DNA from: Erysipelotrichia bacterium
GTDB taxonomy: Bacteria; Bacillota_I; Bacilli_A; Erysipelotrichales; Erysipelotrichaceae
DNA length: 19,177 nucleotides
Reading direction: 5' to 3'
Assembly: GCA_009929095.1 (NCBI GenBank)
Contig: SABF01000009.1
Coordinates: 1 to 19,177 of the forward strand
Below, in pieces: positions 1-18,780 of this stretch. How positions within the stretch are numbered: the first letter of the stretch is position 1; the number at the start of each line of letters is the position of its first letter. The position numbers were made by a program, and so were the translations under genes. Under the pieces are notes generated by a model. The model ran no database searches. It was not told the origin of the DNA and was given only the letters and a program-made list of their open reading frames with translations.

Positions 1-1761
1 CATATCGATATCATCGTCGTTGCCGACGGAATCAAACATGGTCAGCTCATAGTTATACAGAGCATACATATCAGACATTGTAATCGTGTGCTTGTCATTC
101 AGCGGGTCAATGCCAATGAGGCTGATCTCGTGATCGCCATCCTTGATAATGACTTCCTGAACAGCAGCGCCAACCAGCCAGATGGAAACATCCTTGCCGA
201 CTGTCGCAGCCTTGACGATGGCATCGCGCTGAGCTGCTGTAATCTTGCCCAGATCCTGATCCGGAATATAACGGGCAATCAAATTCTCGCCTTCAGCATC
301 CTTCAGGTCGCTGCCGTTTTCGACAATGCGGCCGATAGCATACATGCGGGAGCCAAGATTCAGTACAGCATTGACTGTATCGTTATTGACCTTTGCTTCA
401 TTTGCAGTAATTCCTGTATAGATGGATACTTCCTTGAATTCCTTGCCGATGATCTTTACATCTTCCGGGGTCAGAACAGTTCCCTGTTCATAAGTGACCT
501 TCTTGCCGTCAAGATCAGTAGCCAGGATTCTTCCTGCCAGAGATTCTGTCCATGAAGTCGGAACAGTCATAACATCCGGATGAGAGAACCGGTGAATGAA
601 CGGCATCGCCTTCATGTTGATGCCCTTGTTAATCTCATCTCTCAGATCGTTGCGGATATCCTTGTCAACCAGTCGATTCTTCTTGAGCAGCACTCTGCCG
701 TCAGCACCGATCAGATCGGACTTGAGCACATGACCTTCCATACGGTCAAGAATGTTCAGCTTTTTGCGGACCTTATAACGGCCAGCCTTGGTCAGATCAT
801 AACGGCGATAATCAAAGAACTTCGCATCCATCAGCTGGAAGGATCCATCAATGGTTGCGATTTCATCTGCACGCTGGTTCAGATACACAGAAAGAAGCGC
901 ATCATCGCGGGTTCTTGTCTTATCTGCATTCAGAGTGTTGATCAGTTCCGGATAATTGCCGAATACAGAAGTATAAAGGAGTGCATAATCATTCAGATAT
1001 TCACGCTCTTCTGAAGGAACTACGTTTTCCTCATAGATCGGAAAGTTCATGGTTCTCAGGAACTTCTTCATTGCAGAAGTATCAAATGGGTCATCACCCT
1101 TTTCCGGATTCAGGGACATGCCGATTGCCTTGAACAGAATGGTGCTGAACACCTTTCTGCGACGGTCAATGGACACATTCATAATGCGGCCAAGCGCAGC
1201 CTTCTTGTCATCTGACATGAATTCCAGCCAGGTGCCGCGGGAAGGAATGAGTTCACATGTATAAGTATCACGGCCAGTATGCTCTTCTGAAATGATATCG
1301 AAATATGCGCCCGGAGAACGGACAATCTGGCTTACAATGATACGTTCAGCACCGTTAATGATAAAGGTGCCGGTAGGCGACATGAGCGGGAAATCTCCAA
1401 AGAAGACTTCTTCCCATTTGGTCATGACTTCACCGGTTTCCGGATCCACCATCTCGAGTTCCATTTTCGCCTTCAAAGGAGCGCAGTAATTGGTTTCCCT
1501 GAACTTGCACTCCGAAATGGAATACTTTGGCTCCCCGAATTCATAGTCGAGAAACTTCAGCTTAATATTGCCCGCGTAATTGCTGATGGGATAGATATCC
1601 TCAAATACTTCGCGGATGCCTTCCTTGAGAAGCCACTCAAAGGATGCTGTCTGAATCTCCGTAAGATCGGGAAGATCCAGTCCCGCATCGACTCTCTCGT
1701 AGTCTCGGCGGGTTGATTTGTTGCCGTAATGCACAACGCGGTAGGTCTCTTTGTTTTCCAT
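1..1761 (-). CDS. rpoB: RNA polymerase beta subunit, N-terminal 587 codons (3' end cut by window)
   Basis: Beta subunit of RNA polymerase, part of the catalytic core. Translation from the ATG at 1759-1761 gives MENKETYRVVHYGNKSTRRD, and an AAAGGA site lies just upstream. Recognisable beta landmarks are the N-terminal ERVDAGLDLPDLTEIQTASF segment, MSPTGTFIINGAERIIVSQ (about residues 120-140) and VRSPGAYFD. The open frame runs off the left edge at NDDDIDM, which corresponds to the DDIDHLGNRR block before the rifampicin pocket, so the pocket itself lies outside the window. The block falls at about residue 583 here, against roughly 399 in B. subtilis (my recollection, counted back from His482). 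The protein therefore carries about 180 extra residues, mainly between residues 345 and 575, with repeated G-R-[IV]-[LV] barrel-like segments. The His of DDIDH is Met here. Last gene seen of the rplJ-rplL-methyltransferase-rpoB operon. Confidence 0.97.
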   Translation of the reverse strand, partial: MENKETYRVVHYGNKSTRRDYERVDAGLDLPDLTEIQTASFEWLLKEGIREVFEDIYPISNYAGNIKLKFLDYEFGEPKYSISECKFRETNYCAPLKAKMELEMVDPETGEVMTKWEEVFFGDFPLMSPTGTFIINGAERIIVSQIVRSPGAYFDIISEEHTGRDTYTCELIPSRGTWLEFMSDDKKAALGRIMNVSIDRRRKVFSTILFKAIGMSLNPEKGDDPFDTSAMKKFLRTMNFPIYEENVVPSEEREYLNDYALLYTSVFGNYPELINTLNADKTRTRDDALLSVYLNQRADEIATIDGSFQLMDAKFFDYRRYDLTKAGRYKVRKKLNILDRMEGHVLKSDLIGADGRVLLKKNRLVDKDIRNDLRDEINKGINMKAMPFIHRFSHPDVMTVPTSWTESLAGRILATDLDGKKVTYEQGTVLTPEDVKIIGKEFKEVSIYTGITANEAKVNNDTVNAVLNLGSRMYAIGRIVENGSDLKDAEGENLIARYIPDQDLGKITAAQRDAIVKAATVGKDVSIWLVGAAVQEVIIKDGDHEISLIGIDPLNDKHTITMSDMYALYNYELTMFDSVGNDDDIDM

Positions 1762-1796
1762 TAAACGCCATCCTTTCGCCTGCATCGCACTGATAC

Positions 1797-1843
1797 GCCG
1801 AAAAGGGCATACTAACCCCTTTTATTTAGAACATTCGGCTTTT
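1797..1843 (-). terminator. nested hairpin between methyltransferase gene and rpoB (attenuator-like)
   Basis: On the minus strand an inner stem AAAAGGG/CCCTTTT (plus 1801-1807 with 1817-1823) is nested in an outer stem GCCGAA/TTCGGC (plus 1834-1839 with 1797-1802). The U run is inside the inner stem and is followed by CGGC, so termination would be partial at best. It sits 36 bases before the rpoB start. The outer arm AAAAGCCGAA is identical to the arm of the hairpin at 2511-2540. It is likely an intra-operon attenuator or processing site that adjusts rpoB expression relative to ribosomal proteins; that role is inferred. Confidence 0.5.
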
Positions 1844-1881
1844 GTGCCAATTTGAAATGTTATCATCGTTCTGTCAATTCG

Positions 1882-2484
1882 TCAAATGCGTTTGATAGCC
1901 TTGAGAATCCAGTATCCTTTGTCTCTTGCAATGACCTTGCAGGCCCCGAAGATCTCCTCGATCTTCCGTGTCGAAGTCTCTGCACCCTGTTTTCTGCGGA
2001 CAACCGCCAGGAACAGGCCTCCGGGCTTCAGGTGCTCATAGGAGTCCTGATACATCCCGTATACTGTTTCTTTACCGGCTCTGATCGGTGGATTCGTAAG
2101 AATTGCATCGAAACTGCCGGGTATATTCTGAAATCTGTCTGATACAAGTGCCTTGATCTCAGTGCTGTTATTCAAGCCGTTGAGCTGGGCAAGTTCTACC
2201 GCCCGGGGGTTTACATCCCCTGCCGTGACTTCAGCGGAGGGAAACAGCGTCTTCAGCACAATGCCAATAACTCCGTATCCGCAGCCAAGATCCAGAAGGT
2301 CGCCCTTCAAGTCCTCTTCCGCAGCACTTTTCAGCAGAACTTCGGTACCGTAATCCACCTCATTCCGGCTGAATACCCCTTCGTCGGTCACAAATGAGAA
2401 AGTATGCGACGCAAACGTGTACATGTGCGTCTTCCGGTTGGAAGGAAGGTCGCGGTTATCCGTGAAGTAGTGAACATCCGCCAT
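1882..2484 (-). CDS. class I SAM-dependent methyltransferase, RsmC-like (ybxB type)
   Basis: Predicted 200-residue methyltransferase of the RsmC/RlmG-like family, which methylates guanine N2 in rRNA; the exact target in this lineage is not shown by the sequence. SAM-binding motif I is LLDLGCGYG (residues 63-71). The acidic residue after strand beta-2 is in AGDVNPRA (88-95). Catalytic motif IV is NPPI (131-134), the small-family variant of NPPF. The start was set at the ATG at 2484 because AAAGGA lies 8 bases upstream; a longer frame to 2526 would overlap the terminator hairpin and has no such site. The gene lies between rplL and rpoB, as ybxB does in B. subtilis, which supports a role linked to ribosome biogenesis. 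Confidence 0.88.
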   Translation of the reverse strand: MADVHYFTDNRDLPSNRKTHMYTFASHTFSFVTDEGVFSRNEVDYGTEVLLKSAAEEDLKGDLLDLGCGYGVIGIVLKTLFPSAEVTAGDVNPRAVELAQLNGLNNSTEIKALVSDRFQNIPGSFDAILTNPPIRAGKETVYGMYQDSYEHLKPGGLFLAVVRRKQGAETSTRKIEEIFGACKVIARDKGYWILKAIKRI

Positions 2485-2510
2485 CTTTGCACATCCTTTC
2501 TCTAGGGCAG

Positions 2511-2540
2511 AAAAGCCGAAGCTCATTCCGTTCGGCTTTT
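2511..2540 (-). terminator. perfect 10-bp hairpin after rplL
   Basis: The arms AAAAGCCGAA and TTCGGCTTTT are exactly complementary with a 10-base loop, giving a stem ending in a U run on the minus strand. It starts 26 bases after the rplL stop. It fits the partial terminator commonly found after rplL, which makes L10/L12 transcripts more abundant than rpoB transcripts. It ends 26 bases before the methyltransferase start. Confidence 0.8.
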
Positions 2541-2566
2541 CTGAACATGTTTAATCTCAGAAGAGA

Positions 2567-2938
2567 TTATTTGAATTCAACAGTAGCACCTGCTTCGGTG
2601 AGCTGCTTCTTGATGTTCTCTGCTTCATCAGCCGGAACGTCCTTCTTGATTTCTGCCGGAACAGTATCAACAAGCTTCTTAGCCTCAACCAGGCCAAGAC
2701 CTGTGATGGTGCGAACAACCTTGATGACTGCAACCTTGGATTCGCCGAAGCTGCTCATTACAACAGTAACGTTCTTCGGAGCTGTATCTACTGCTTCAGC
2801 CGGAGCTGCTGCTGCTGCAACCGGAGCTGCTGCAGATACGCCATACTTCTCTTCAATTGCCTTTACCAGATCGTTCAGTTCAAGAATTGTAGCTTCGTCG
2901 AGATAAGCAAGAATCTCGTCCTTTGTTAACTTTGCCAT
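2567..2938 (-). CDS. rplL: 50S ribosomal protein bL12 (L7/L12)
   Basis: Stalk protein of the large ribosomal subunit that recruits and stimulates translation GTPases. The 123-residue length is normal for the family. Residues 1-35 form the dimerisation domain ([20 protein letters not shown]), followed by an Ala/Pro-rich hinge (about 36-52) and the globular C-terminal domain with [27 protein letters not shown] and the conserved end [17 protein letters not shown] site lies 9 bases before the ATG. It follows rplJ by 21 bases in the same operon, as expected because bL12 dimers bind the uL10 C-terminus. Confidence 0.98.
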
Positions 2939-2959
2939 GGATTATTTTCCTCCTCTTCC

Positions 2960-3529
2960 TTAGGCAGCCGCAGCCTCAGTGGGCGCAGCCTCTTCTTCCT
3001 TTACTTCTGCCGGAGCAGCTTCTGCTGTCTCGGGTGTGTCTGTACCCTTTGCCTCTGCAACTGCGTTAAGAACGCGTGCAACAGAAGAGATCGGGGCCTG
3101 CAGAACTGACAGGAACATGCTGAGCATGCCTTCTCTGTTCGGCAGTGCAGCCAGCTGATTCACAACTTCAGCATCGACAACTTTTCCTTCAACGATGCCG
3201 CCCTTGAGGATCAGAGCTTTGTGCCTCTTAGCAAACTTCGCCATAACGCGAGCTGCTGCGGTTTCGTCTTCGCCAAACGCAATCGCATTCGGTCCGGTAA
3301 GAACGTTCTTCAAATCTCCGAATCCCGCTTCATCAGCAGCTTTAGCTGCCAATGTATTCTTGTAGACTTTCATTTCAACGTTTTCGCTGAGAAGAGCCCT
3401 GCGGAGCTCGGTGACTTCGGAAACGCTCAGGCCGCGATATTCTGCGACAACTGCAGAAGTTGTGTTCTTCAGTTTGCCGGAGATCTCAGTGACGACGTTC
3501 TTTTTGGATTCTAATACCGCCTGATTCAT
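2960..3529 (-). CDS. rplJ: 50S ribosomal protein uL10
   Basis: Base of the ribosomal stalk; binds 23S rRNA and bL12 dimers and, when free, represses its own operon by binding the leader RNA. Conserved family segments are NQAVLESKKNVVTEISGKL at the start, AVVAEYRGLSVSEVTELRR (about 28-46), VYKNTLAAKA and LTGPNAIAF. At 189 residues it is about 15-25 longer than usual. The excess is an Ala/Glu/Pro-rich tail (TPETAEAAPAEVKEEEAAP) past the bL12-binding helix. An AAGGTGG site is 4 bases before the ATG. First gene of the operon, behind a promoter and the L10 leader. Confidence 0.97.
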   Translation of the reverse strand: MNQAVLESKKNVVTEISGKLKNTTSAVVAEYRGLSVSEVTELRRALLSENVEMKVYKNTLAAKAADEAGFGDLKNVLTGPNAIAFGEDETAAARVMAKFAKRHKALILKGGIVEGKVVDAEVVNQLAALPNREGMLSMFLSVLQAPISSVARVLNAVAEAKGTDTPETAEAAPAEVKEEEAAPTEAAAA

Positions 3530-3552
3530 TTTCCACCTTCACCTTTCTCGTT

Positions 3553-3674
3553 ATCTCCTGCCAAATATAAATCAAGCCCTCGGCGGAAACCGGGGGCTGA
3601 AAATGTCTGCATGACTTTTCTACCTCGGTAACCTGATTAAGCTTTCGCCGTTACTGTCTTTGGTATTTGATAAC
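3553..3674 (-). promoter_or_regulatory. ribosomal protein L10 leader RNA upstream of rplJ
   Basis: The rplJ 5' untranslated region holds two conserved strings of the Bacillota L10 leader, ACCAAAGACAG (minus, plus 3654-3664) and TTACCGAGGTAGA (minus, plus 3619-3631). In between is the purine-rich GGCGAAAGCTTAA region. A GC-rich hairpin, GCCCCCGG...CCGAGGGC (plus 3576-3597), follows. The family is known to bind the L10-L12 complex and reduce expression of the operon when that complex is in excess. The exact ends are approximate, set from the predicted transcription start and the hairpin. Confidence 0.75.
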
Positions 3675-3680
3675 GAACTG

Positions 3681-3708
3681 ATATTATCACAATTATGCAG
3701 ATTGTCAA
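3681..3708 (-). promoter_or_regulatory. promoter of rplJL-rpoB operon
   Basis: On the minus strand a consensus -35 TTGACA (plus 3703-3708) is separated by 16 bases from TAATAT (plus 3681-3686), an acceptable -10 for the housekeeping sigma factor. The predicted start is at about 3674, immediately before the conserved L10 leader, which supports the call. Confidence 0.75.
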
Positions 3709-3777
3709 ATAGTTTCCTCGCTTAATCTGTCATTGACTTTCCTAATTGTTATAGCAGATTTTTATGAACGATCATCT

Positions 3778-4020
3778 TTAAGCATATCTGTTGGCACTGA
3801 GCAATGCTTTCCGCTTCCTGGCTATTTCATAGAACTGGCGATTATGTCCGCCTGTCCCAACACTCACACTCAGCTTACTGACAGCCGCAGAAACGGTATC
3901 GTCCCAGCGGTCTTTTGCTTAGAGCGGCTTCAGTCTCCGAAGCATATCATTCCGGATTATGATCGCAGCGAAAGAAATCATTGTCTTTAATTCCGGCGAT
4001 TCATCTGTGTATACAAGCAC
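3778..4020 (-). pseudogene. probable C-terminal remnant of an IS transposase
   Basis: One minus-strand frame reads LVYTDESPELKTMISFAAII, RNDMLRRLKPL, a stop (plus 3919-3921), then AKDRWDDTVSAAVSKLS and QFYEIARKRKALLSANRYA before the final stop at 3778-3780. The pattern, a hydrophobic F-AAIIIRN-ML segment followed by a small coupled domain and a basic A-RKRK tail, resembles the end of IS1634/IS4-like DDE transposases. It has no start, an internal stop, and no readable N-terminal part; the frame upstream of 4020 is full of stops. No terminal inverted repeats were found. The family call rests on recall of the fold pattern and is tentative. Confidence 0.4.
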
Positions 4021-4346
4021 GCCTTCAGATTAGTTATAGGATATCCAAATCACAGCTTGTTACAGCAGACTTTCAGTCACCAAAAAGGTTCATTTCAGCG
4101 CACCGATTGATGTCACTCGCAGTTTTTGGGTGATAGCTTTTGAATTAGTTAATGATTATTGCTAAAGGTTCCTGATTATCCTATATGCAGACAGAGATTT
4201 GCTGCCTGGGGAGGAACTTAGACCTATTGAGCTGATCATAATACCTCTGAAGTTATGCCCGATAAATCAGAATGCATACAATCCATCCGATATTTGAAAC
4301 TCCATTTCAATTTGGTGACCTGCCCGACTTATGCAGTCATGGAATT
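4021..4346. other. intergenic stretch without a recognisable gene
   Basis: About 325 bases between the transposase remnant and the end of the MATE gene. All frames are interrupted on the minus strand, and nothing on the plus strand resembles a protein. It may be further decay of the same mobile element. No hairpin with a U run was found to terminate the MATE transcript. Confidence 0.4.
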
Positions 4347-6179
4347 TTACGCCGCTTCCGGCAGATCCCTTACATCGGATTCAGGACTATTGATTTTCAT
4401 TACAATTACATTGGTATCCATCAAAAACATATATCTGATATCTGAAGATAAGCCCGCTAAAATTCTGTATCCAATATTCCCGGAAAGATTATCAGCAGAC
4501 CAGCAGTTATTCATATCCTCACAGAAATCATATTGTTTCAAGTTGTCCCGGAAATGGATTTCCACATTCCCGCTGTCAATGGATATGCCGATATCAATAA
4601 ACGGCCTGGCTTTCTTTCCATCGTCATTTTCAATAATCCGTCTGACCATTTCTTCTGTACATAGTGATATTGCCTGAACCTGTTTCTCCGGCAGGTGATA
4701 TAGTCGAAGTTTTTCAGGAAGAATGGCAGAGACCTCGGCCGCTTCTTCCATCGTCTTGACGGTTGTATAAAACACATGATGATCCTGACTGTCCAATTGT
4801 ACCGGAGTCTCTGCCAGATCTGTCAGTTTAAAAATGAAACTTCTTTTTTTGATTGATTTCACCAGTATGATCCCCAGTGTCATAGTAACAGAACTGATTC
4901 CCATAGCAGCGATCAAACCAAAAGGACCCCAGACTGATCCAAGCAGAAGAGACATTGCCAAAGGCAGAATAATACGTCCGAACATCATCAAAGTATTGAC
5001 AGTTCTGGTTTTCTTCAGTCCCTGGTAGAACCCGATATAGCAATCATTGAATGTGCTGAAAGGAAGGCATGCAAAATACCATGCGATTGCATATGAGGCC
5101 AGCTTAAGCACTGTATCCGAATCAACAATATACAGACGGGCAATCGCACCAGACAGCAGAACTCCAAGAAGAGACACTGGCAGGATAAACAGCAGATAGT
5201 ATTTTTTAGAAACACGAATCAGGTTATGCAGAGAATCCTTATCAGTTTCTCCAATATAGATGCTGACAAGCATCATAATAGTTCCCTGCATGCCAACGGA
5301 CAGCATATCCGGAAAATAGTGAATGCTGTTCTGAACCGCAATAGAGGACATCAGCGTTGAAGCACCCAGAAACAAGATCCATTTATTCAAAATGATTTTG
5401 TAAAACAAGTCATAAAATGTTCTCAGTGCTTTGGGGACGCCGACCGAAATGATGCCTTTCAGAAGTTTGATATCCAATCCATGAACAGCCAATTTCAAAT
5501 GATTGCCTTTCTTTCGGAAATGAAGAAGCAGAATAATAAAGGCGCTCCAGTAAGCTGCCATTCGGCCAATTGAAACTGCAATCATGCCCTGTTTGAGCAG
5601 GATGATTCCTATGGTTACAATTGCCACATTGGTTATCGACATTATAATTGTCGCGTATTTTGCTCTCTTTGTTTCTCCGTCCAGCTGCATTGCCGGCACA
5701 AGCAGAAGATTGCCCGTAAATGCCGGAGAAGAGCAGAACAGTCCTATCAGATACGTTTTGAGCATCACAACCCCTTCTGCTGATGTTCTGCCAGAGGAGA
5801 GGAACAAAGCCAGCGGATCAGAAAACACAACACCAAGAACGGCTATTAACAAAGAAACACACATCACCGTCCAGAAACTGGTTGCGAACGCTTTATTTGC
5901 ACTGTCCAAATCGCCTTTTGCAATTTTTTCTGCGCACACCACCTGCGTTCCAATCGAAAAAAGGGATCCAACTGAAGAGATCAGTAAAAAGTAAGGATCC
6001 GCCAGACCATAACTGGACATCGCAGCGCTGCCCAGGTAGCGGCTGATTACGATACTGTTTACTGATATGCAAAGCACGCTTGAGATCGAAACAAGTATCA
6101 GCACAAAAAATGTTTTTAAATACATCGATTCAATCACTTTTTCGCGATAGATTTTGGATTGACCGTCAATCACTGTCAT
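4347..6179 (-). CDS. MATE-family transporter fused to degenerate RsbW-like ATPase domain
   Basis: A 610-residue fusion. Residues 1-450 form a MATE-type secondary transporter with about 12 membrane segments; it starts with YLKTFFVLILVSISSVLCIS and has typical features such as NSIVISRYLGSAAMSSYGLA and the mid-repeat LKGIISVGVPKALR. Such proteins normally exchange drugs or metabolites for Na+ or H+. Residues about 465-600 form a cytoplasmic HATPase_c_2 (RsbW anti-sigma kinase) domain: ISLCTEEMVRRIIEN is the N-box helix, IEIHFRDN-like VEIHFRDN the D-box strand, and NIGYRIL (568-574) the lid helix. The N-box Asn that holds Mg in active members is Arg514, and the usual His is Asn518, so ATP turnover is doubtful. 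AGAGG lies 8 bases before the ATG. It lies 134 bases downstream of the cyclase gene on the same strand. Confidence 0.85.
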   Translation of the reverse strand: MTVIDGQSKIYREKVIESMYLKTFFVLILVSISSVLCISVNSIVISRYLGSAAMSSYGLADPYFLLISSVGSLFSIGTQVVCAEKIAKGDLDSANKAFATSFWTVMCVSLLIAVLGVVFSDPLALFLSSGRTSAEGVVMLKTYLIGLFCSSPAFTGNLLLVPAMQLDGETKRAKYATIIMSITNVAIVTIGIILLKQGMIAVSIGRMAAYWSAFIILLLHFRKKGNHLKLAVHGLDIKLLKGIISVGVPKALRTFYDLFYKIILNKWILFLGASTLMSSIAVQNSIHYFPDMLSVGMQGTIMMLVSIYIGETDKDSLHNLIRVSKKYYLLFILPVSLLGVLLSGAIARLYIVDSDTVLKLASYAIAWYFACLPFSTFNDCYIGFYQGLKKTRTVNTLMMFGRIILPLAMSLLLGSVWGPFGLIAAMGISSVTMTLGIILVKSIKKRSFIFKLTDLAETPVQLDSQDHHVFYTTVKTMEEAAEVSAILPEKLRLYHLPEKQVQAISLCTEEMVRRIIENDDGKKARPFIDIGISIDSGNVEIHFRDNLKQYDFCEDMNNCWSADNLSGNIGYRILAGLSSDIRYMFLMDTNVIVMKINSPESDVRDLPEAA

Positions 6180-6313
6180 GATACAAACCTCTTTCCTATG
6201 CTCAATCGAACAAAAGCACAGTTCAAAACAGAGCCTCGCTCTTTCAATCTCATAATTGCATCACAGCTTTTTAAAGCAAAGATTCTGGCGTGATTAAAGA
6301 CACTATTTCAAAG

Positions 6314-7702
6314 CTATTCGTCAATATGTGCATTAAACCAGCGTTCAAACCCTTCCGGGAATCCCGTCAGTCGAAGCAGTGTTCCCGTGGAGTCTGCAGA
6401 CAGCACTTTTGCATATAGTTTGCCGCCAATCTCGATAACAATATTATCGAACGGCTTTAACTTTACATCCGTATTCAGCAGAACATCCGTTTTGGAAAGA
6501 GCCAGAATGCTGCCATCTTCCAGATGAGTGGAAACATGCTTATCCTCGATCTGCGAAAATCTGATTTGAATTGGTGTCTTCAATGTCTTCGGGGGCTCAT
6601 TGTATGTCGCACAGGATAGATTGTAGGGCTCTCCAATTCCCGTTACGTCACTGATCTTAATCGTGACAGTTTCTCCCTTAGGCAGAATTTCAATCTCTTT
6701 TTCAATCGTGAGCGGTACTGCTGCAAGTTCGCGTGTTCTTGGTGAAATCAAAATCTGTCCGCCAACTGTATAGCTTTCGATTCGCCCGCACAGATTCACT
6801 CTGTTGCCAATCACGCCGTACTTTGTACGCTTGACTGACCCGATATTGCCAATGATCATTTGGCCTGTGACAGCCGCGATTCCCATGAGCAGTTCCGGGA
6901 ATCCATTATCTTTATTCCACTGGTTTACCGCAGGCATGCAGTTCTGCATAGCAATTGATGCAGCAATTGCATCCGCCGCATGAGTCTCTGAATACACTGG
7001 TGCGCCAAATACAACGAGTATGCCATCACCCATAAATTCAATGATTGTTCCATTATATTTCCTGATCACCTCTGTCATTTCTGCAAGATAATGATTCAGC
7101 ATATACAGAAGTCTGTCAGCATCTATGCGTTCGCTCAATGCGGTAAATCCACGCAGATCACTTTTAATCACGGTAAGCTCTTTGGAACATCCGCCCAGTT
7201 CCAAGCCATGCGGAGTATCAAGTAACTGCCTGACGATATCATCAGAGAGAAAGCGGCCAAAGGTTTCTGTGAGAAGCTTGTTTCTCATTTCCAGCTGCTG
7301 GTTAAGTTTGCTTATCTTTTCCGCCGTCTTGGCAGCGTCACGAAGTTCTGTAAGCTCACTGATATCGTTTATCACAAGAATAATGCCTATTTTTTTGAAA
7401 TCGTCCTGCAGAAATGCTGTACTGATATTCAACTGTTTGAACGCAATGCCATCATAATATGACACAGTGCAGCGATGCGTGGCTGCTGTGTCATAAAGCG
7501 CATCTAGTACCGTTTGGTTAAATGCATCATTTTCGGGATATTGAATGAAGCACTGTGCAAACGTCCGCTCAGTCAAATTTTCGTCATTCAGCCCCAGGAT
7601 TGTCCGGGCTGCTCTATTAATGAATTTTACTTTTCCATCAAAACCAATTAAAACTGCGCCTTCAGACATGTCGCGCAGCATTTTTTCAAAGACTAAATCC
7701 AT
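6314..7702 (-). CDS. PAS - class III nucleotide cyclase - PilZ-like signalling protein
   Basis: A 462-residue cytoplasmic protein likely to make a cyclic nucleotide. An N-terminal PAS domain (about 8-115, GAVLIGFDGKVKFINRAART) is followed by a coiled-coil linker (125-150), the FGRFLSDDIVRQLL segment and a class III cyclase domain (about 175-345). Metal-binding Asp182 (SDLRGFTAL) and Asp226 (FMGDG) and the transition-state pair Asn303/Arg307 (GNRVNLCGRIE) are all present, so it should be active. Purine-selecting positions are Glu222 and Gly296, unlike the Lys/Asp or Lys/Thr of adenylate cyclases. Residues about 375-462 (PIQIRFSQIEDKHVS, LYAKVLSAD) form a PilZ-like barrel often seen after such cyclases. 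The ATG at 7702 was chosen over an in-frame TTG at 7714 because GAGGAG abuts the TTG and lies 12 bases before the ATG. Confidence 0.85.
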   Translation of the reverse strand: MDLVFEKMLRDMSEGAVLIGFDGKVKFINRAARTILGLNDENLTERTFAQCFIQYPENDAFNQTVLDALYDTAATHRCTVSYYDGIAFKQLNISTAFLQDDFKKIGIILVINDISELTELRDAAKTAEKISKLNQQLEMRNKLLTETFGRFLSDDIVRQLLDTPHGLELGGCSKELTVIKSDLRGFTALSERIDADRLLYMLNHYLAEMTEVIRKYNGTIIEFMGDGILVVFGAPVYSETHAADAIAASIAMQNCMPAVNQWNKDNGFPELLMGIAAVTGQMIIGNIGSVKRTKYGVIGNRVNLCGRIESYTVGGQILISPRTRELAAVPLTIEKEIEILPKGETVTIKISDVTGIGEPYNLSCATYNEPPKTLKTPIQIRFSQIEDKHVSTHLEDGSILALSKTDVLLNTDVKLKPFDNIVIEIGGKLYAKVLSADSTGTLLRLTGFPEGFERWFNAHIDE

Positions 7703-7747
7703 GTAATTATCCAACTCCTCAAATTGAAAGCAGGAGATTCCCTTCCT

Positions 7748-7765
7748 GATATAATATTATATAAA
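7748..7765 (-). promoter_or_regulatory. possible -10 region of cyclase gene
   Basis: The minus strand reads TTTTATATAATATTATATC here and contains a perfect TATAAT about 50 bases before the cyclase start. No good -35 lies 16-18 bases further upstream, so this promoter may need an activator or another sigma factor. Confidence 0.3.
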
Positions 7766-8320
7766 ATTTCAGACATTTTTTGTGTGCTCGATGAAATCTA
7801 TTGTGATTTTTGCTGATAATTCACCGATGAGTTACGACGATAATGAAAAACGGCTTAGCTGAACTCAGCTGCAGACTTGCCATCTGGCCATCCTGTGATT
7901 ACCGATATCTATGCTTGCACACTGACCAGATATCTTCTTCAGATTTTTTCGGATTCCGGCAAGCTGTTCCGCCGCTTATCCTTGCAGAATCATTGTTCTT
8001 GCAATATCTGGCATAAGCCGGAAATAATATCTTTTTGACAATCAAATCGTGAGGACAGTCTTTTGCAATTCACAATGAATTGCGCATCAGGAGGGGGACG
8101 TTGCACCGCGATTCCATTTCTTCATCAAATCAACATGTCTGGAAGCAGAATCAATTGAAAACTTGCCTGATCATAGAAAACGTGAGGGCCTTTAGCATTC
8201 TGAAACCGCTATGCATAGATCATCAGCGATGCGTTTCTGCAGTTATTTGATCACCGCCGGTATCTGCAGTCGCAATGAAGCTGCTGTTTCACATATCATT
8301 GAATTCAATAGAAAGAACAT
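7766..8320. other. long non-coding stretch, no recognisable gene
   Basis: About 550 bases with frequent stops in all frames. A minus-strand frame around 7920-8190 reads fragments such as QFIVNCKRLSSRF and QKDIISGLCQILQEQ between stops and may be the ghost of a gene, but nothing identifies it. It holds one notable inverted repeat (8065-8083). No promoter or known RNA was recognised. Confidence 0.4.
8065..8083. repeat. 7-bp perfect inverted repeat
   Basis: GCAATTC and GAATTGC flank ACAAT. The symmetry could be an operator for a dimeric regulator or a chance palindrome; no gene start lies near enough to decide. Confidence 0.3.
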
Positions 8321-8695
8321 CTATAAAACTGCATAAAGAAAAAGCCCGCAGTTCGAAACCAGATTGTTTCCAGACTGTCTTGCTGAGAACTCTTTGATTA
8401 GTGACAGGGCAATCAAAAATGCATTGCTTGTCATAAACGTCTGCTTATCTATTTTGCTGTGAACAGCTTCGAAAATACGTTTCCGCTCCGTAATTGTCCA
8501 CAGTCTAAGTCGGGTATAGAATTTAACCTGTTTTGCCACAAATTTATAAAACAGCTTTTGAGCGCCTGACTCTGAACGGATCTTTGAAAGGTATATTTCC
8601 AAGACTGCCTGATGATTGATGAGGTTTGCCAGTATATTGTTACAACGTTTGTGATTGCATGAAAGCACTTTCTGATTTATACCTGCCACAATCAA
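8321..8695 (-). CDS. doubtful small protein or gene fragment
   Basis: An open frame of up to 124 residues whose only upstream start is a TTG immediately after a terminator U run, with no ribosome binding site. The single internal Met (in TFMTSN) would give under 40 residues. The middle, KFYTRLRLWTITERKRIFEA and VHSKIDKQTFMTSNAFLIA, has a protein-like mix of charged and hydrophobic residues and may be a remnant of a longer gene. No family was recognised. Confidence 0.22.
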   Translation of the reverse strand: MIVAGINQKVLSCNHKRCNNILANLINHQAVLEIYLSKIRSESGAQKLFYKFVAKQVKFYTRLRLWTITERKRIFEAVHSKIDKQTFMTSNAFLIALSLIKEFSARQSGNNLVSNCGLFLYAVL

Positions 8696-8696
8696 T

Positions 8697-8733
8697 AAAA
8701 AAAGTCCGTCTTCACATTATCGGAAAACGGACT
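8697..8733 (-). terminator. strong intrinsic terminator
   Basis: The minus strand has AGTCCGT, a loop of about 17 bases, ACGGACT and a run of seven Ts. It is the clearest rho-independent terminator in this part of the window and ends the candidate small RNA. Confidence 0.8.
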
Positions 8734-8826
8734 GTATATAACCATAATAATCGGAAGACAGCTCACTAAAGAGTGTCTTCCTTGCCTTATGGGGGAGGCC
8801 TGTTTAAGTACTCTGAATTTTATGCA
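8697..8826 (-). ncRNA. candidate small RNA with C-rich loop and intrinsic terminator
   Basis: The minus strand contains, in order: a short stem GCCT...AGGC with loop CCCCCATA (plus about 8787-8802); a strong hairpin GGAAGACA-CTC...GAG-TGTCTTCC (plus 8753-8781); and a rho-independent terminator AGTCCGT...ACGGACT followed by seven Ts (plus about 8697-8733). No coding frame precedes the terminator, so it most likely ends a free-standing RNA of about 125 nt. A -10-like TATAGT lies near 8835 (minus) without a good -35. The CCUCCCCC loop complements Shine-Dalgarno sequences, as in the C-rich-loop sRNAs of Staphylococcus. It matched no RNA family that I know. Confidence 0.5.
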
Positions 8827-9018
8827 TGAAAACTATATCACATAGCGATACCAAAAAATAGCGAAATGCAATAATTTTGCAAAAGGCAAATGAGAATCAT
8901 TTATAAAACACCCTCTTTTCATGATAGAATCGCAGAAGCCCTGATATACTGACCAAGCGTCATTTTTTGGACAGATATTTCGACACATTTCTGTTTGTGT
9001 CTTACCTCTTTCAGAAAT
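8827..9018. other. AT-rich upstream region between sRNA and membrane protein gene
   Basis: About 190 bases with no convincing coding frame. It should hold the minus-strand promoter of the candidate sRNA (near 8835) and the plus-strand promoter of the next gene. For the latter, TAGAAT at about 8925-8930 is a possible -10, without a good -35. A 68-codon minus-strand frame here has no suitable ribosome binding site. Confidence 0.4.
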
Positions 9019-10329
9019 ATGCATGCTAGAATTCTTCATGTGAAAAAGAACTGGTTTGATACACTCGGCAGTGCCGCAACTGACATACTTCTGCTGACCA
9101 TCGGAGTGCTGTTCTTCCTGTCCCGGGCTTCTACCTGGCGAATCTTAGGAATCATTTTTATTATCTATTCCCTGTATACTCCGACCATGCTGATAATACG
9201 TTTGGCAAGGCATGAAAAGGAAGCGGATTTTTTTGACTATGCAATCATAATCTTTGACTATTTCATGGCTATTACCGTTCTGGCTATTCCGGATTACTTT
9301 GTCCGCTTTGTCTATATCTTCACCGGCTGGTGGATGATTGCCCATGGACTTATTACCATGGTGGACTTCTATGTGCTGAGAAGAGATCATCTCAATGGCA
9401 CTCTCAGCACACTGTTTGCCGCTCTGGTATCTCTGTCAATTGGCATATTTTTTATCTTAAGTATGAATTTCACGGTTAAGCGCTGGCTGATGGGAACGAT
9501 TGCCGGTATCTACTTCTGCATCTATGGGGCAATTGGTCTGCTATTCCATCTGTCTGTCAATCGGCCAATCAGGAAAGGTCGAAAGAGATACAACTGGTCC
9601 TATTCCATGCCGGTAATTCTGAATGCCTTTATCCCGGTCAGAGTATATATCTCCAGCAGCAGGCTGATCCAGGAATCAGAAGTGCCAATGCTGAATCAGA
9701 AAGCAGAAGGTACAGATCTGCATATCTACAGCTATCTCAATGCCAAAGGCGGGGAAGCGTTCGGTCACACGGATATTGCCTATAAAGGCACCGTATATTC
9801 CTATGGCTGCCATGATCCCAAGGCAAGAAAGCTTTTAGGAACACTGGGTGACGGTGTACTGATTGTTGCTGATGAAGCAAGGTTTCTGAATGAAGCACTG
9901 CATGGGGAAAAGAAGATTGTCATCAGCTATGGAATCAAAATGACTGATCAGGAACGTTCTATACTGGAAAAGAGAATTGCAGAGCTGATGAGCAGAACTG
10001 TGCCATGGAAATGCGCACTGGCGGAAGCGGAAGAACAAGGTGTGCCCTATACAGGCTTCATGGACTATGCCTCACGTGTCTATGAAGGATCTCATGCCAA
10101 TATGTATAAATTCTCAAGAGGAAAGTTTCGAACCTACTTTGCTGCCGGCACCAACTGTGTACTGCTGGCAGATGAACTGGTTCGTTCCAACGAACTGATG
10201 CTGGTAGATATCAATGGTCTTGTCACTCCGGGTGCCTATCTGGCATTCCTGAATTCTGAATACCTCAAGAAAGACACCCTGGTGGTCTCCCGAACGCTGT
10301 ACCGCGTCAGTCAGGATTCAGCCAAGTAA
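9019..10329 (+). CDS. membrane protein with permuted papain-like (NlpC/P60-type) domain
   Basis: A 436-residue protein. Residues about 12-190 form six membrane segments in short hairpins (TDILLLTIGVLFFLS, WRILGIIFIIYSLY, YIFTGWWMIAHGLITM, LVSLSIGIFFILS, IAGIYFCIYGAIGLLF), similar in layout to HdeD-like proteins. Residues about 235-420 resemble circularly permuted papain-fold amidases such as DUF4105 and YiiX-type proteins. There is a His in AFGHTDIAYKG (His250), an SYG strand, and a later Cys in GTNCVLLADEL (Cys380), the His-before-Cys order typical of the permuted group. A cell-wall, lipid or amide hydrolase role is inferred from fold only. The start is uncertain: the ATG at 9019 lacks a clear ribosome binding site, and an in-frame TTG lies at 8995. 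Its stop overlaps the end of the opposing sulfotransferase gene by 12 bases. Confidence 0.75.
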   Translation: MHARILHVKKNWFDTLGSAATDILLLTIGVLFFLSRASTWRILGIIFIIYSLYTPTMLIIRLARHEKEADFFDYAIIIFDYFMAITVLAIPDYFVRFVYIFTGWWMIAHGLITMVDFYVLRRDHLNGTLSTLFAALVSLSIGIFFILSMNFTVKRWLMGTIAGIYFCIYGAIGLLFHLSVNRPIRKGRKRYNWSYSMPVILNAFIPVRVYISSSRLIQESEVPMLNQKAEGTDLHIYSYLNAKGGEAFGHTDIAYKGTVYSYGCHDPKARKLLGTLGDGVLIVADEARFLNEALHGEKKIVISYGIKMTDQERSILEKRIAELMSRTVPWKCALAEAEEQGVPYTGFMDYASRVYEGSHANMYKFSRGKFRTYFAAGTNCVLLADELVRSNELMLVDINGLVTPGAYLAFLNSEYLKKDTLVVSRTLYRVSQDSAK

Positions 10330-12240
10330 GTATCCGGTATCGTAGGTCACCTCATTGATCCTCAGATACAGATGTCCAGTCAATGTCTTCGAGTAGATAT
10401 ACCTCGACACCTTCACATCCGTTCCGGATTGACCAGGAATGAACACACACATTGCCTTGTAGTATTTTTTGACGACAGGCACTTCATAGTGATCTTGCAC
10501 GCCATCATGTTCAATGATCAGTTCCACTTCATCGCCAGTTTTAAAGCTTCCAGTGAATGCCAGCCGGTCATACTGCCGCATCAAGGCAATGCCGGCTTTT
10601 TTATATGTCTCGTCCGCAGATGCTGTATCCCTCACTGTGCCATCAGCAGTGGAATCTGGATGTGTATCACTGATACTTCCCAATTGTTTTGCGGCACCTG
10701 TTCTGTAAGTATCATTTGCATACAGCTGCATCTTCTCAATTCTGTAAGTATTGGTTGGAAGAATCATTTCAAAGACCACTTCGCCATCGACCAGTTCCAC
10801 CGTATCACTCCTCCGTGTATCAGCGGAGCCAAGTGATGCCGGTACATTCAGTATTTCACCATCTTTATAAGAGATGCCGCCGGATACCGTCAGATAATGA
10901 TCCTTCCCCAGTTCATCCACGTCTGAAATATAGGGAGAATAGAACTCACTGCCACGCTCCTTGCCATATTCGTATGTCTGTTCTGCAGTCATCGCATTGG
11001 CATCTATACGATAGCGAACCAGCCGACTGTAGTTATCTGCCGCAGCCACTGCAGCATCTTCCCTCTTAGAGCGATTGTTGCCATTGTCAAACAGCATGAT
11101 CTCGCCATCAGTGCAGATCATTGCAGCGTGCTGCATCCATTGCCATTCAAAGCCGTCTTTCACCGGTGTCAGAAAATACTTGAGGTATGATTGATCCCAG
11201 CCATCCGGAGAACCCAGAATCCAGTTGATGTTCAATGTGCTGTAATCAAGATTCACGACTGCATCGAGATGTCTTCCGGACAGGGTGATAGAATTGGTTT
11301 CTTCGTCATACCAGACAGCATTGTTATGAAACCAGTCATCTGCTGTCCAGGAAGCATTCTTGCCGCTTTCCATATTCAATATGTCTTTGAGGTCAATCGT
11401 TCTCAGGATTTCGCCAGTATCTCTGTTTACTTCTGCAATGACATCTTCTACGGTACCGGACGCATTGCCAAGATCATTGGTACAAATCAGCAGATTGCCG
11501 TTTTCCATCTCATAGCAGTCATGGTGATATCCGCCAGGAAGCGTATACTCTGAATAAATCTTGCCCAGCATATCCATCTCATATAACCCCGTTGAATAAT
11601 ATGGGCTGGCAATCAAGCGCTCTGTACTGAGCATCAGATGTCCATTGTCAAGTCTGGAGATATCCCACAGAGCCATCTGGTTCAAATACCATCTCACATC
11701 GCCGTTTGTATCATAGGCGCATGTATAGCCCGAACTTGCCGGGGTATAGAAATAAAGGGAATGATCCAGCGCTTTTTCGGTGCTGTATACAGACTCCGGC
11801 AGGATAAAGTCATCTGGCAGAGCTTCTGTCTGTATGCTCAGCACTCTGGTATTGCCGCCGCAGGTAACTGTAACCTGGTTATCAGTATCCGGATATAGGC
11901 CATATACTGGAATCATGTGATCTGTGGCCGCTTCAAAGCTGTGGCTGTAAGTCGTATCTTCATTTTTGCCCTGAATCACTATGGATACCGGCAGACTTTC
12001 ATCGCTGTGAAACAGCACCAGGGCAGTAAGAGGAGAGTTCCCATAGGGATCCACAATAACTTCCGGGTCATCAAATGTATAACCTGCAGTACTGAATCTT
12101 TTTTCCAGTTCCGCCTGCTGCTCCGCCAAACTTGGAGTGAAAGGAACAGGCTCACCTATTTCTGCTGCAGTACTGGCAGTGCAGCCAGTGAGTACGCTTA
12201 TCATCAATGATGCAGACAGTATCATTCCGGATAATTTCAT
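10318..12240 (-). CDS. aryl-sulfate sulfotransferase (AssT family) lipoprotein
   Basis: Surface enzyme of the AssT family, which moves a sulfuryl group from one phenolic sulfate to another phenol without PAPS. A lipoprotein signal is plain: residues 1-20 end in the lipobox LTGC with Cys20. Key residues of E. coli AssT (His252, His356, Arg374, His436) have counterparts at His239/240 (GGYHHDCYEMENGNLLI), His305 (WFHNNAVWY), Arg323 (LSGRHLDAV) and His371 (WMQHAAM). The 18-residue spacing from His305 to Arg323 equals that in E. coli. Length is 640 residues, with about 100 more at the C-terminus than usual. The ATG at 12240 has GGAGGA 8 bases upstream, better than the TTG at 12246. It lies 60 bases after the membrane XRE regulator on the same strand, probably co-transcribed. 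Confidence 0.88.
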   Translation of the reverse strand: MKLSGMILSASLMISVLTGCTASTAAEIGEPVPFTPSLAEQQAELEKRFSTAGYTFDDPEVIVDPYGNSPLTALVLFHSDESLPVSIVIQGKNEDTTYSHSFEAATDHMIPVYGLYPDTDNQVTVTCGGNTRVLSIQTEALPDDFILPESVYSTEKALDHSLYFYTPASSGYTCAYDTNGDVRWYLNQMALWDISRLDNGHLMLSTERLIASPYYSTGLYEMDMLGKIYSEYTLPGGYHHDCYEMENGNLLICTNDLGNASGTVEDVIAEVNRDTGEILRTIDLKDILNMESGKNASWTADDWFHNNAVWYDEETNSITLSGRHLDAVVNLDYSTLNINWILGSPDGWDQSYLKYFLTPVKDGFEWQWMQHAAMICTDGEIMLFDNGNNRSKREDAAVAAADNYSRLVRYRIDANAMTAEQTYEYGKERGSEFYSPYISDVDELGKDHYLTVSGGISYKDGEILNVPASLGSADTRRSDTVELVDGEVVFEMILPTNTYRIEKMQLYANDTYRTGAAKQLGSISDTHPDSTADGTVRDTASADETYKKAGIALMRQYDRLAFTGSFKTGDEVELIIEHDGVQDHYEVPVVKKYYKAMCVFIPGQSGTDVKVSRYIYSKTLTGHLYLRINEVTYDTGYLLG

Positions 12241-12300
12241 AGACAAAATCCTCCTTGATTAACTTAGCGGAGTATTCTCAAATAATCTACAGTTTTGGAC

Positions 12301-12999
12301 TCAACTGTCGGTTGAACTGCATGTATCAGCAGATGTTACCGGTATTGTATAGCCGACAGCTGTGCCAGCTTCGTTCACTGCCTGTATTTCTATCTGCAGC
12401 ACGCTGTCCGGTTTCACAGTACAGGCATCCTTTTCCTGATTAACCATAAACCTGACCCCTTTCAGATATTCGATGAGCGCTGTCGGTTCACTTCCCTCGT
12501 ATACATCCGTGTCCAACACAGTATCTCCCTCATAGAGAGAGCACTGAATCCGTCTGTACTTTGTATGATCTTCTTCTCCACAGTAAGTGATATCTGAAAT
12601 ATACAGATAGGATTGATCACTGCCCGAAGCGAGACTTCCGGAGATATTGAATGCCGAGCATCCAGAAGACAGTGTACGAAACTCAAAATAATCTCTTTTT
12701 CTTGTCCGCTGAAGATATCCTGCCAGCAGAATCAATGCTGCAGCAATGACTGCAATGATCCAGTACGGCTTCTTCTCAGCCGGTTTTGGTTCTTTACCAT
12801 CCAGCATGGCATTCAAATCAGTGCCAAACAGTGCACTGATCTCCCTGAGCATCAGTACATCAGGAACACTGCGTCCATTCTCCCATTTGGAAACCGCCTG
12901 AAATGTCACTCCGAGTCTGTCTGCCAGCTGGGCCTGTGTCATCCCTCGTTCTTTTCGCAATGTGCGTATTCTTTTTCCAAGATCTGCCGGATTCATCAT
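12301..12999 (-). CDS. membrane-anchored XRE-family regulator
   Basis: A 232-residue one-component regulator. An N-terminal Cro/C1-type helix-turn-helix spans residues about 8-65 (LGKRIRTLRKERGMTQAQL, GVTFQAVSKWENGRSVPD). A linker leads to one membrane segment at about 80-97 (WIIAVIAAALILLAGYL) with basic residues RTRKR on its outer side, and then about 130 residues rich in beta strands that should lie outside. The outside part contains several Cys. The signal is thought to be sensed outside while the DNA-binding domain stays at the membrane. No Shine-Dalgarno is visible before ATGATG at 12999/12996, so the start is uncertain. It likely controls itself and the sulfotransferase gene that follows. 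Confidence 0.82.
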   Translation of the reverse strand: MMNPADLGKRIRTLRKERGMTQAQLADRLGVTFQAVSKWENGRSVPDVLMLREISALFGTDLNAMLDGKEPKPAEKKPYWIIAVIAAALILLAGYLQRTRKRDYFEFRTLSSGCSAFNISGSLASGSDQSYLYISDITYCGEEDHTKYRRIQCSLYEGDTVLDTDVYEGSEPTALIEYLKGVRFMVNQEKDACTVKPDSVLQIEIQAVNEAGTAVGYTIPVTSADTCSSTDS

Positions 13000-13078
13000 G
13001 GAACTATTGTACAGGAGTGGCAAAGGCATGCACTAAAAAGCTGAAGCAATTTTCTTTTCCAAAAGAATTATTTGTTAT

Positions 13079-13098
13079 ATTCAGGATTTTTCCTGAAT
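13079..13098. repeat. perfect 8-bp hairpin upstream of XRE gene
   Basis: ATTCAGGA and TCCTGAAT flank a 4-base TTTT loop. It lies 80 bases upstream of the XRE start and about 110 bases beyond the end of the decayed gene. It could be an operator for the regulator or a transcript-end hairpin; no long U run follows on either strand. Confidence 0.45.
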
Positions 13099-13205
13099 AA
13101 ATCAACTTCTCTTCTGCTCTATTTCTGCCGGGCGTCATTCTTCAACTGACCTGTGATATAAAGAATTCCACACATACAAGATACGATGCCGCTTCCAGGG
13201 ATGAT

Positions 13206-13604
13206 TCAGCAATTCTTTTTATTCATGAACAAACGCTTTACCGCCTTATACTCAGGGAAGATCCGTCCTTCCAAGTGTAACGAATACATGCAGCACAATG
13301 CATGATCTGTTCTGCAATATTCCGGCAGTTCATCTGAAGCCCCGTGCAGGATAACAATGATCCTGATCCTATCTTATATAAAAGAGACGATATCTTCTTC
13401 ACGCTCTGTTCATTGCTGAGGTCATATTCGATAAAACGGAATATTCTGCCTATTCATGATCATATTTTGGCTGAGCAGTGTCTCTGTTTTCCTGTCCAGT
13501 GCATCTTCAAACCGGGCAATACTGATCGATGGTGTGGCATATCTGCCATGCTGCAGTTCTTCCTTGAGCGCAGTCTCATCAATCTGATGGAAATACTCTG
13601 TCAT
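13206..13604 (-). pseudogene. frameshifted remnant of an unrecognised gene
   Basis: Three consecutive minus-strand frames join into one plausible protein. The first runs from the ATG at 13604 (AGGAG 4 bases upstream) as MTEYFHQIDETALKEELQHG to QNIPFYRI and a stop at 13422. The second picks up at about 13435 as FIEYDLSNEQSVKKISSLLY and runs to a stop at 13238. The third ends GRIFPEYKAVKRLFMNKKNC at a stop at 13206. Charged, amphipathic composition and smooth joins at the frameshifts suggest an originally intact protein of about 130 residues. The family was not recognised. A plus-strand frame across the same bases has a low-complexity look and is a shadow. Confidence 0.45.
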
Positions 13605-13813
13605 CACACTCCTGACCGCAGCAGCACAGCAGAATCATCTGAGGCAGTACTATTCCCACTCTCCAGGAAATCCTTTAGTTATTCTTGTTTTTACGGCTTG
13701 ACGTTTCTGATAAGACATCGATCACAATTGCGATACCGGTTTCGCTTTTGCTTTATCGGCATACAAATAATGCCAACTTGCTGTAAACTGTCTGTGTTAA
13801 GGAGCTTGTGAAT

Positions 13814-14230
13814 ATGATTAGAGAAATCATTCATGATACTGCCATGCTTTCCATTCCTGCAGATCCCGCAGATGAATCAGACATCGCAGTCGCAGACGAT
13901 CTTCAGGATACATTGAAAGCGAATCGAGAAATCTGTGTAGGTCTTGCGGCCAACATGATTGGCATAAATAAGGCAATCATTGTATATACAGATACTGATA
14001 CCGGTGAACAGTTTGAAATGTTCAATCCGGCAATACTCAAAAAGAGCAGTGCCTATGAAGCAGAAGAAGGCTGTCTCTCGCTGGAAGGAACTCGAAAGGC
14101 TGTAAGGTATCACAAGATACTGGTGCAATGGGATGATCGCAGTATGGAATCACATACCAGAGCATTTTTTAATGACACTGCCCAGATCATTCTCCATGAA
14201 ACAGATCATTGCCATGGCATTCTGATCTGA
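13814..14230 (+). CDS. def: peptide deformylase, short divergent type
   Basis: Metalloenzyme that removes the formyl group from the N-terminal Met of new proteins. All three metal-site motifs are readable: motif 1 is VGLAANMIG (42-50), in which the usual Gln of GLAAxQ is Met48; motif 2 is EGCLS with metal ligand Cys87; motif 3 is HETDH (His128, Glu129, His132). At 138 residues it is shorter than classic bacterial enzymes (about 150-190), lacking the C-terminal helix. The Met variant occurs in similar short deformylases of gut Bacillota, as far as I recall. The ATG at 13814 was chosen because GGAG lies 9 bases upstream; the in-frame GTG at 13808 is too close. It may be a second, specialised copy. 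Confidence 0.9.
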   Translation: MIREIIHDTAMLSIPADPADESDIAVADDLQDTLKANREICVGLAANMIGINKAIIVYTDTDTGEQFEMFNPAILKKSSAYEAEEGCLSLEGTRKAVRYHKILVQWDDRSMESHTRAFFNDTAQIILHETDHCHGILI

Positions 14231-14240
14231 ATACAGCAAA

Positions 14241-14263
14241 GCCGCTGTATTCTCTGCAGCGGC
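14241..14263. terminator. hairpin between convergent genes
   Basis: GCCGCTG and CAGCGGC flank a 9-base loop, starting 10 bases after the deformylase stop and ending 14 bases from the stop of the opposing gene. The T run is weak (TGTTTT further on). The left arm can also pair as AATACAGC/GCTGTATT (14230-14251). It probably serves both converging transcripts. Confidence 0.5.
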
Positions 14264-14277
14264 CCTGTGCTTGTTTT

Positions 14278-14772
14278 CTAGAACTTTTTCTTTGAAGCTG
14301 TCGGATCCACACGCTGAATTGTGGTTCCGTCTTTTTTCTTCTTTGCCAGCTTGACATGGCTGGCTTCCAGGTATGCCTTGATCTCTTCCGTCTGGGATTC
14401 CCTGAAATAGATTGCTGAAGAGCCTTTGAATTTGAAGTGGAGACTGTGATCAGATTCATCAATGAATATGGAACCCGCCTTATCATAGGGAATCTCACGT
14501 CCGACCATGACGATACTTGTCGGAGTTAATCCGCTCTTCATAAACCAGTACATAACAGCCATCATGCTCAGAAGAATGGTCTGTATGTATCTGAAGATTC
14601 CGGAGAATCTGATAAAACTGAATAATGCAATGGTAAGAAACAGCACCGGAATCAGCCAGCGAAGTCCCGGATCAATTTCCAGCTCTACTTTCTTTGACAC
14701 CAGCAGCATCTTTATCAGCATGCCGATAATGACAAGATCCAGTCCATAGAACAGAAAATCCTCCATTGGCAT
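14278..14772 (-). CDS. small membrane protein, PH-like cytoplasmic part, unknown function
   Basis: A 164-residue protein. There are three membrane segments in residues 1-85 (FLFYGLDLVIIGMLIKMLLV, WLIPVLFLTIALFSFI, IQTILLSMMAVMYWFM). They are followed by about 45 residues of strand-rich sequence (REIPYDKAGSIFIDESDHSL, FKGSSAIYFRESQTEEIKA) that resembles the first strands of a bacterial PH-like domain. The tail is very basic (KLAKKKKDG, ASKKKF). The start at 14772 lies 2 bases after the stop of the TPR-like gene, with GAGG inside that gene's end, so the two are translationally coupled. No function can be given. Confidence 0.7.
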   Translation of the reverse strand: MPMEDFLFYGLDLVIIGMLIKMLLVSKKVELEIDPGLRWLIPVLFLTIALFSFIRFSGIFRYIQTILLSMMAVMYWFMKSGLTPTSIVMVGREIPYDKAGSIFIDESDHSLHFKFKGSSAIYFRESQTEEIKAYLEASHVKLAKKKKDGTTIQRVDPTASKKKF

Positions 14773-14774
14773 GA

Positions 14775-15476: not shown

Positions 15477-15506
15477 AGTAGTATTACCTCCAGAATCAAT
15501 GTAAAT

Positions 15507-15515
15507 AGTATATCA
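15507..15515 (-). promoter_or_regulatory. extended -10 promoter for TPR-like gene
   Basis: The minus strand reads TGATATACT here, an extended -10 (TGN before TATACT), about 30 bases before the start codon. It lies just beyond the liv operon terminator. The -35 region overlaps the terminator U run and is poor, which the extended -10 may offset. Confidence 0.5.
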
Positions 15516-15528
15516 TGACCAATCGTTA

Positions 15529-15560
15529 TAAAAAGCACTATGCCGTTGCGGCACAGTGCT
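15529..15560 (-). terminator. intrinsic terminator of liv operon
   Basis: The minus strand reads AGCACTGTGCCG, loop CAA, CGGCATAGTGCT, then TTTTTAT. The 12-bp stem has one mismatch. It starts 13 bases after the stop of the CBS-ACT gene and closes the operon. Confidence 0.88.
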
Positions 15561-15572
15561 CCTTTTCAAGAT

Positions 15573-16226: not shown

Positions 16227-16230
16227 ATTA

Positions 16231-16935: not shown

Positions 16936-16944
16936 ATCTTCTCC

Positions 16945-18769: not shown

Positions 18770-18780
18770 CTTCACTTTCC

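Follow-up and report, generated by a model that had tools for sequence, protein, structure and literature searches.

A MATE-HATPase fusion gene of an Erysipelotrichia bacterium and the family to which it belongs

The fusion gene and its domains

The window analysed here is a stretch of 19,177 nucleotides from an Erysipelotrichia bacterium (GenBank assembly GCA_009929095.1, contig SABF01000009.1, positions 1 to 19,177). It contains a gene whose product joins a membrane part of the MATE fold to a C-terminal ATPase domain of the SpoIIAB/RsbW type (Table 1). The original prediction, made from the sequence alone, described this protein as a MATE efflux pump fused to an RsbW-like ATPase domain with a broken N-box. 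The presence of both parts in one protein is borne out by Pfam, structure models and relatives.

Table 1. Coordinates of the fusion gene, its domains and motifs, and the adjacent cyclase gene in the window
Feature	Position	Strand	Basis
MATE-HATPase fusion gene, 610 aa	4347..6179	-	ORF; Pfam MatE and sub-threshold HATPase_c_2; full-length relatives P0002, P0003
MATE-fold membrane part, residues 1-450	4830..6179	-	MatE 2.3e-25; model pLDDT 83.3; Foldseek best match MATE 3wbn, 1.5e-11
Asn41 in TM1, at the place of DinF-BH Asp40 / PfMATE Asp41	6057..6059	-	PDB sequence alignments
SpoIIAB/RsbW-type HATPase domain, residues 468-597	4389..4778	-	
N-box, residues 509-519: Glu510 kept, Asn to Arg514, His to Asn518, Gly to Asp519	4623..4655	-	Alignment
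D-box RDNL, residues 544-547, Asp545 kept	4539..4550	-	Alignment
Lid motif NIG, residues 568-570, Gly570 kept	4470..4478	-	Alignment
Class III adenylate/guanylate cyclase gene, PAS-like N-terminal part	6314..7714	-	134 bp upstream of the fusion, same strand

The membrane part shares fold and sequence with MATE/DinF transporters (PfMATE, DinF-BH). The protein passes the curated MatE cut-off of Pfam (89.6 bits against 24.9), and the match of the predicted membrane-part model to MATE 3wbn has a TMt of 0.79. The fusion differs from these transporters in its C-terminal domain, in the absence of the aspartate of transmembrane helix 1 (TM1) from the window protein and most fusions, and in an arginine in TM7 of most fusions.

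The C-terminal domain is modelled at pLDDT 85.4. The structural check proposed with the original prediction shows a predicted Bergerat fold of the SpoIIAB type in this domain. Its HATPase_c_2 score of 21.3 bits is below the curated cut-off of 27.4, while a relative at another locus (L049) reaches 41.0. The fusion differs from SpoIIAB and RsbW (HATPase_c_2, PF13581) by the attached membrane part; in addition, the window copy has lost the asparagine, histidine and glycine of the N-box, and no sigma factor was seen nearby.

Spread of the fusion and state of its nucleotide site

A search for the same domain order elsewhere, also proposed with the original prediction, showed that the order is not unique to the window. 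At least 30 further matches spanning both parts were found in 100 genomes (the source genome and others of the same genus and the same order); 29 of the 70 genus genomes, the source genome included, have a fusion match at E <= 1e-25. When a HATPase-part pattern was run against species genomes, it hit at least 597 stretches, 535 of them encoding a relative of the query; 80 loci were kept, and all 80 have a frame carrying both parts. Going by record titles, most of these loci come from ruminant-gut metagenome-assembled genomes (MAGs) assigned to Lachnospiraceae, Erysipelotrichaceae, Oscillospiraceae or other Bacillota; a few belong to named Butyrivibrio and Sarcina strains, and one is labelled Chloroflexi. 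Among 30 hand-picked fusions, MatE is matched in 30 and HATPase_c_2 in 29 (E <= 0.001). PADLOC returned no families. Among the papers listed in searches of literature with partial, mainly non-subscription coverage, none describes a MATE-HATPase fusion in its title or the opening of its abstract.

It is vanishingly improbable that the fusion is an artefact of assembly or reading frame. The source assembly is fragmented (507 contigs), but the same fusion frame occurs in all 80 kept loci, among them Butyrivibrio Su6, AE2015 and INlla14 and Sarcina DSM 11001, whose records are titled as strains and not as MAGs, and a relative of 66% identity crosses the joint between the two parts. An artefact was rejected on the strength of these relatives.

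In SpoIIAB, Glu46 is catalytic and Asn50 binds Mg (PMC10345196). Alignment to SpoIIAB places Glu510 at Glu46, Arg514 at Asn50, Asn518 at His54 and Asp519 at Gly55. The catalytic glutamate and the D-box aspartate are thus present in the window domain, and the Mg-holding asparagine is replaced by arginine. The substitutions at 514 and 518 and the retained D-box and lid are all as originally read. The codon of Arg514 is CGG; a single-base sequencing error at this residue was considered and rejected.

The broken N-box named in the original prediction is not a hallmark of the fusion. The family alignment has 113 rows, drawn from 112 loci or proteins (frames of at least 200 aa with HATPase and MATE matches, rows identical in the last 150 residues removed), and 112 rows reach the HATPase domain. 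The N-box asparagine is present in 107/112; glycine, aspartate, alanine, threonine and, in the window protein, arginine each replace it once. Glu510 and Asp545 are conserved in 112/112, the N-box histidine is present in 105/112 and the lid glycine in 111/112. The family D-box is mostly RDDC, unlike the DxG of stand-alone RsbW-like neighbours.

The sole fusion lacking the lid glycine is P0002, which was the closest relative found and aligns to 96% of the query at 66% identity. P0002 has the N-box asparagine, the opposite of the window copy. Identity between the two is 57% in the HATPase part and 70% in the MATE part; only 2 of 586 comparable family pairs are as lopsided, this pair included, and the pairs are not independent. 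In a tree of 106 fusions, P0001 and P0002 stand together on a long branch (3.68), the deep placement of which is unsure.

The source genome has two more fusions. The second (C142, locus L137) has a damaged box in which the asparagine is alanine and the histidine is asparagine; the third (C228, locus L136) is partial and has an intact N-box. A broken N-box that tracks genome-wide loss of the switch was rejected, since the same genome retains this intact box.

Judged by its residues, the window protein belongs, as a decayed copy, to a widespread MATE-HATPase family, and the nucleotide site reads as being under relaxed constraint in the small lineage of the window protein and P0002. Since the asparagine, histidine and glycine are gone while Glu510, Asp545 and Gly570 stay, the window domain most likely phosphorylates nothing and is most likely a non-catalytic domain used for docking or nucleotide occupancy. 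The window protein is not classed as a SpoIIAB/RsbW kinase, because the Mg-binding asparagine is missing and its HATPase_c_2 score stays under the Pfam cut-off. Taken by itself, the decayed site is of minor interest; the family is the interesting part.

Partner-switch genes beside the fusions

Partner switches are known chiefly for steering sigma factors. Genes of such switches were sought within 6 kb of each fusion, where the contig extends that far. Profiles for STAS, SpoIIE, HATPase and MATE were derived from the very loci that were then scored, and Pfam was therefore used as a check. The controls were 40 hand-picked plain MATEs from 18 of the genomes that also supplied fusion loci; a few are long (e.g. 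L171, L186, L248).

STAS or SpoIIE genes occur at this range in 29/80 fusion loci and 2/40 plain MATE loci (Fisher 1.2e-4, a value that is too sharp because the loci are related). All 49 STAS and SpoIIE neighbours of the 80 loci were confirmed by Pfam at E <= 1e-4 (29 STAS, 20 SpoIIE); among them, 14 have a further match to APH and 7 to HATPase_c_2. All 35 STAS neighbours examined, including 29/29 from the 80 loci, carry the phospho-serine motif S[AG]GLR. In 11/80 loci a same-strand STAS or SpoIIE gene is less than 200 bp from the fusion. Stand-alone RsbW-like genes with the N-box asparagine adjoin some fusions (L049, L148, L153, L154). Within the genus, a STAS gene is found in 28/28 other genomes with a strong fusion match, compared with 23/41 without.

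Some proteins near the fusions combine a STAS domain, a TIGR02172-like kinase domain and an RsbW-like domain in one chain (L078:4407-5960); similar 517-aa frames occur in L059, L084 and L093. A second type of transporter also has a HATPase-like domain: symporters, shown for L049 to be of the SDF family, carry one at the N-terminus (L049:2247-3893, L050:2239-3888, L067:1404-3065), and this domain matches the same HATPase family with an hhalign probability of 95.5.

At the level of the family, the excess of STAS and SpoIIE neighbours over the controls supports a partner switch whose target is a transporter-like protein. The original prediction had suggested a STAS or SpoIIE partner for the window domain; the neighbours and their serine motif favour this for the family, and the window, which has no such gene, does not. 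The partner-switch reading is weaker for the window copy than for the family: no STAS gene was detected in the source genome, which is 74.6% complete, and the gene next to the fusion is the only class III cyclase detected there. The source genome has three SpoIIE matches, one of them beside an RsbW-like gene; together with the further fusions, these indicate that the organism probably has the switch.

The SiaABCD switch of Pseudomonas is not known to have a transporter-fused kinase, unlike the MATE-HATPase fusions, and MlaFB is not known to include a HATPase kinase or SpoIIE. SLC26/SulP transporters carry a STAS domain (PMC8256260); like the fusion they bear a partner-switch-type domain, which there is STAS and here is the kinase-like partner of STAS. 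In MlaFB, the STAS subunit MlaB is tied to an ABC transporter (PMC7367683); it resembles the fusion loci in linking a STAS protein to a transporter and differs in the transporter being of the ABC type.

Possible roles of the fusion proteins

The reading that we tentatively favour, at slightly less than even confidence, is that the family domain forms the membrane end of a partner switch working without a sigma factor, and that the window copy is a non-catalytic docking or nucleotide-occupied domain. It draws on the observed fusion, predicted fold, residue states and neighbourhood enrichment; from these we infer docking, a direction of control, an output and any transport. A signal would reach the SpoIIE phosphatase, which would dephosphorylate the STAS protein. 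The dephosphorylated STAS protein would then dock on the HATPase domain of the fusion, and docking would change the state of the membrane part. RsbW-type kinase domains would phosphorylate the STAS protein and so reset the switch. In the window lineage, the HATPase domain may be kept for docking or as a nucleotide-occupied regulator that does not phosphorylate.

A number of results weigh against this reading. When fusions and controls are taken strictly from the same 18 genomes, 4/18 fusions and 2/40 plain MATEs have a STAS or SpoIIE neighbour (p 0.068). Within the genus the counts are 5/27 and 1/32 (p 0.084; as above, relatedness of the loci makes these p-values too sharp); this set of 27 shares genomes with the 80 loci and includes four partial fusions, and the neighbour at L155 is a split piece of a fusion and is uncounted. 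The enrichment is limited to 29/80 related loci. A profile of 24 fusion domains alone finds RsbW at only 9.4e-4, with a histidine kinase next at 3.2e-3, and phmmer with the window domain alone finds no match in the PDB. In the window, only the fusion itself matches the four profiles, and neither PF01740 nor PF13466 finds a STAS gene in the source genome, which is 74.6% complete; STAS may be missing because of missing sequence. The loss of the TM1 acid, described next, also speaks against a conventional antiporter as the component that is gated.

The TM1 aspartate (PfMATE D41, DinF-BH D40) is one which we take to have a coupling role. Residue counts were made against plain MATEs of at least 420 aa from the fetched loci (87 rows). 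Position 41 is aspartate in 85/87 plain MATEs and in 14/113 fusions, in which serine is commonest (79/113); the window protein has asparagine. When the whole TM1 core is considered, an acidic residue is found in 86/86 complete plain MATEs and 15/107 fusions. TM7 position 260 is arginine in 96/113 fusions and arginine is outside the five commonest plain-MATE residues, at a position that is gap-prone in the alignment and for which a recheck gave no usable count. Since the TM1 acid is absent from most fusions, it is unlikely from these residues that most work as ordinary DinF-type antiporters, and the label of efflux pump is doubtful; the MATE fold and sequence in the original description stand, the pumping less so. 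A receptor or facilitator role is possible.

These residue differences bear on the possibility that the MATE fold is a receptor, in which a ligand controls a HATPase domain acting on a STAS partner. The replacement of the TM1 acid, the serine at position 41 and the TM7 arginine are all consistent with such a transceptor. The coupling role of the aspartate is an assumption, however, and the residue is kept in 14 fusions; some neighbouring SpoIIE phosphatases bear sensor domains, so that the input may lie there instead. We consider a transceptor a real though minority possibility. It is unlikely that the HATPase domain of the window lineage is a decaying or merely structural relic beside a MATE part that works alone. 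This would fit the faster divergence of the HATPase part between P0001 and P0002, the loss of a different motif in each (asparagine in the window protein, lid glycine in P0002) and the lack of a detected STAS gene in the source genome; yet both proteins read through to the end uninterrupted, Glu510 and Asp545 are retained, the domain is modelled at pLDDT 85.4 and over half of its residues are still identical.

The adjacent cyclase gene suggests another explanation for the window lineage, in which its nucleotide signal would replace the partner-switch input and the altered HATPase pocket or the transporter would respond to it. The cyclase matches Guanylate_cyc (5.8e-21) and sensory_box above its cut-off, with PAS families below theirs. 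It is the only PF00211 match in the source genome, which is one of just 2/70 genus genomes with a class III cyclase match. In three Lachnospiraceae loci (L083, L086, L103), a cyclase that is the only match of its genome, and that probably carries CHASE2, lies just downstream and shares a 4-bp overlap with the end of the fusion gene. Of 81 adjacent same-strand genes, 3 match CHASE2 and 3 match Guanylate_cyc, and a four-seed cyclase profile finds none beside 72 plain-MATE control loci. Against this, the lead was noticed after the fact, the three of 80 loci are all from related Lachnospiraceae, and 3/13 other fusion-bearing genomes have a cyclase match whose position relative to the fusion is not established. 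A link to the cyclase is rather improbable. It is more improbable still that the HATPase domain is a membrane-tethered anti-sigma factor that sequesters a sigma factor: no sigma-factor family is among the 25 commonest of the 73 Pfam families in the 81 adjacent same-strand genes.

A wider form of the partner-switch reading can be proposed for rumen and gut Firmicutes. A widespread sigma-free SpoIIE-STAS-HATPase switch would work through MATE-fold proteins that are mostly receptors or switchable facilitators without the TM1 coupling aspartate, rather than drug pumps, and window-type lineages would be catalytically dead and tied to a cyclase. In this full form we regard the proposal as speculative and on balance doubtful. 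A large family with the kinase-like partner inside a membrane transporter fold, accompanied in some genomes by adjacent STAS and SpoIIE genes, would allow tests of whether a partner switch controls a membrane protein directly at the post-translational level, and named Butyrivibrio strains are available for such work. Gut-genome proteins that are annotated as MATE efflux pumps may not be pumps.

Two other features of the window can be recorded. An L10 ribosomal leader RNA is located at 3561-3681 (-), upstream of the rplJ frame. An arylsulfotransferase (ASST) with an Ig-like N-terminal domain is encoded at 10318-12246 (-), according to Pfam.
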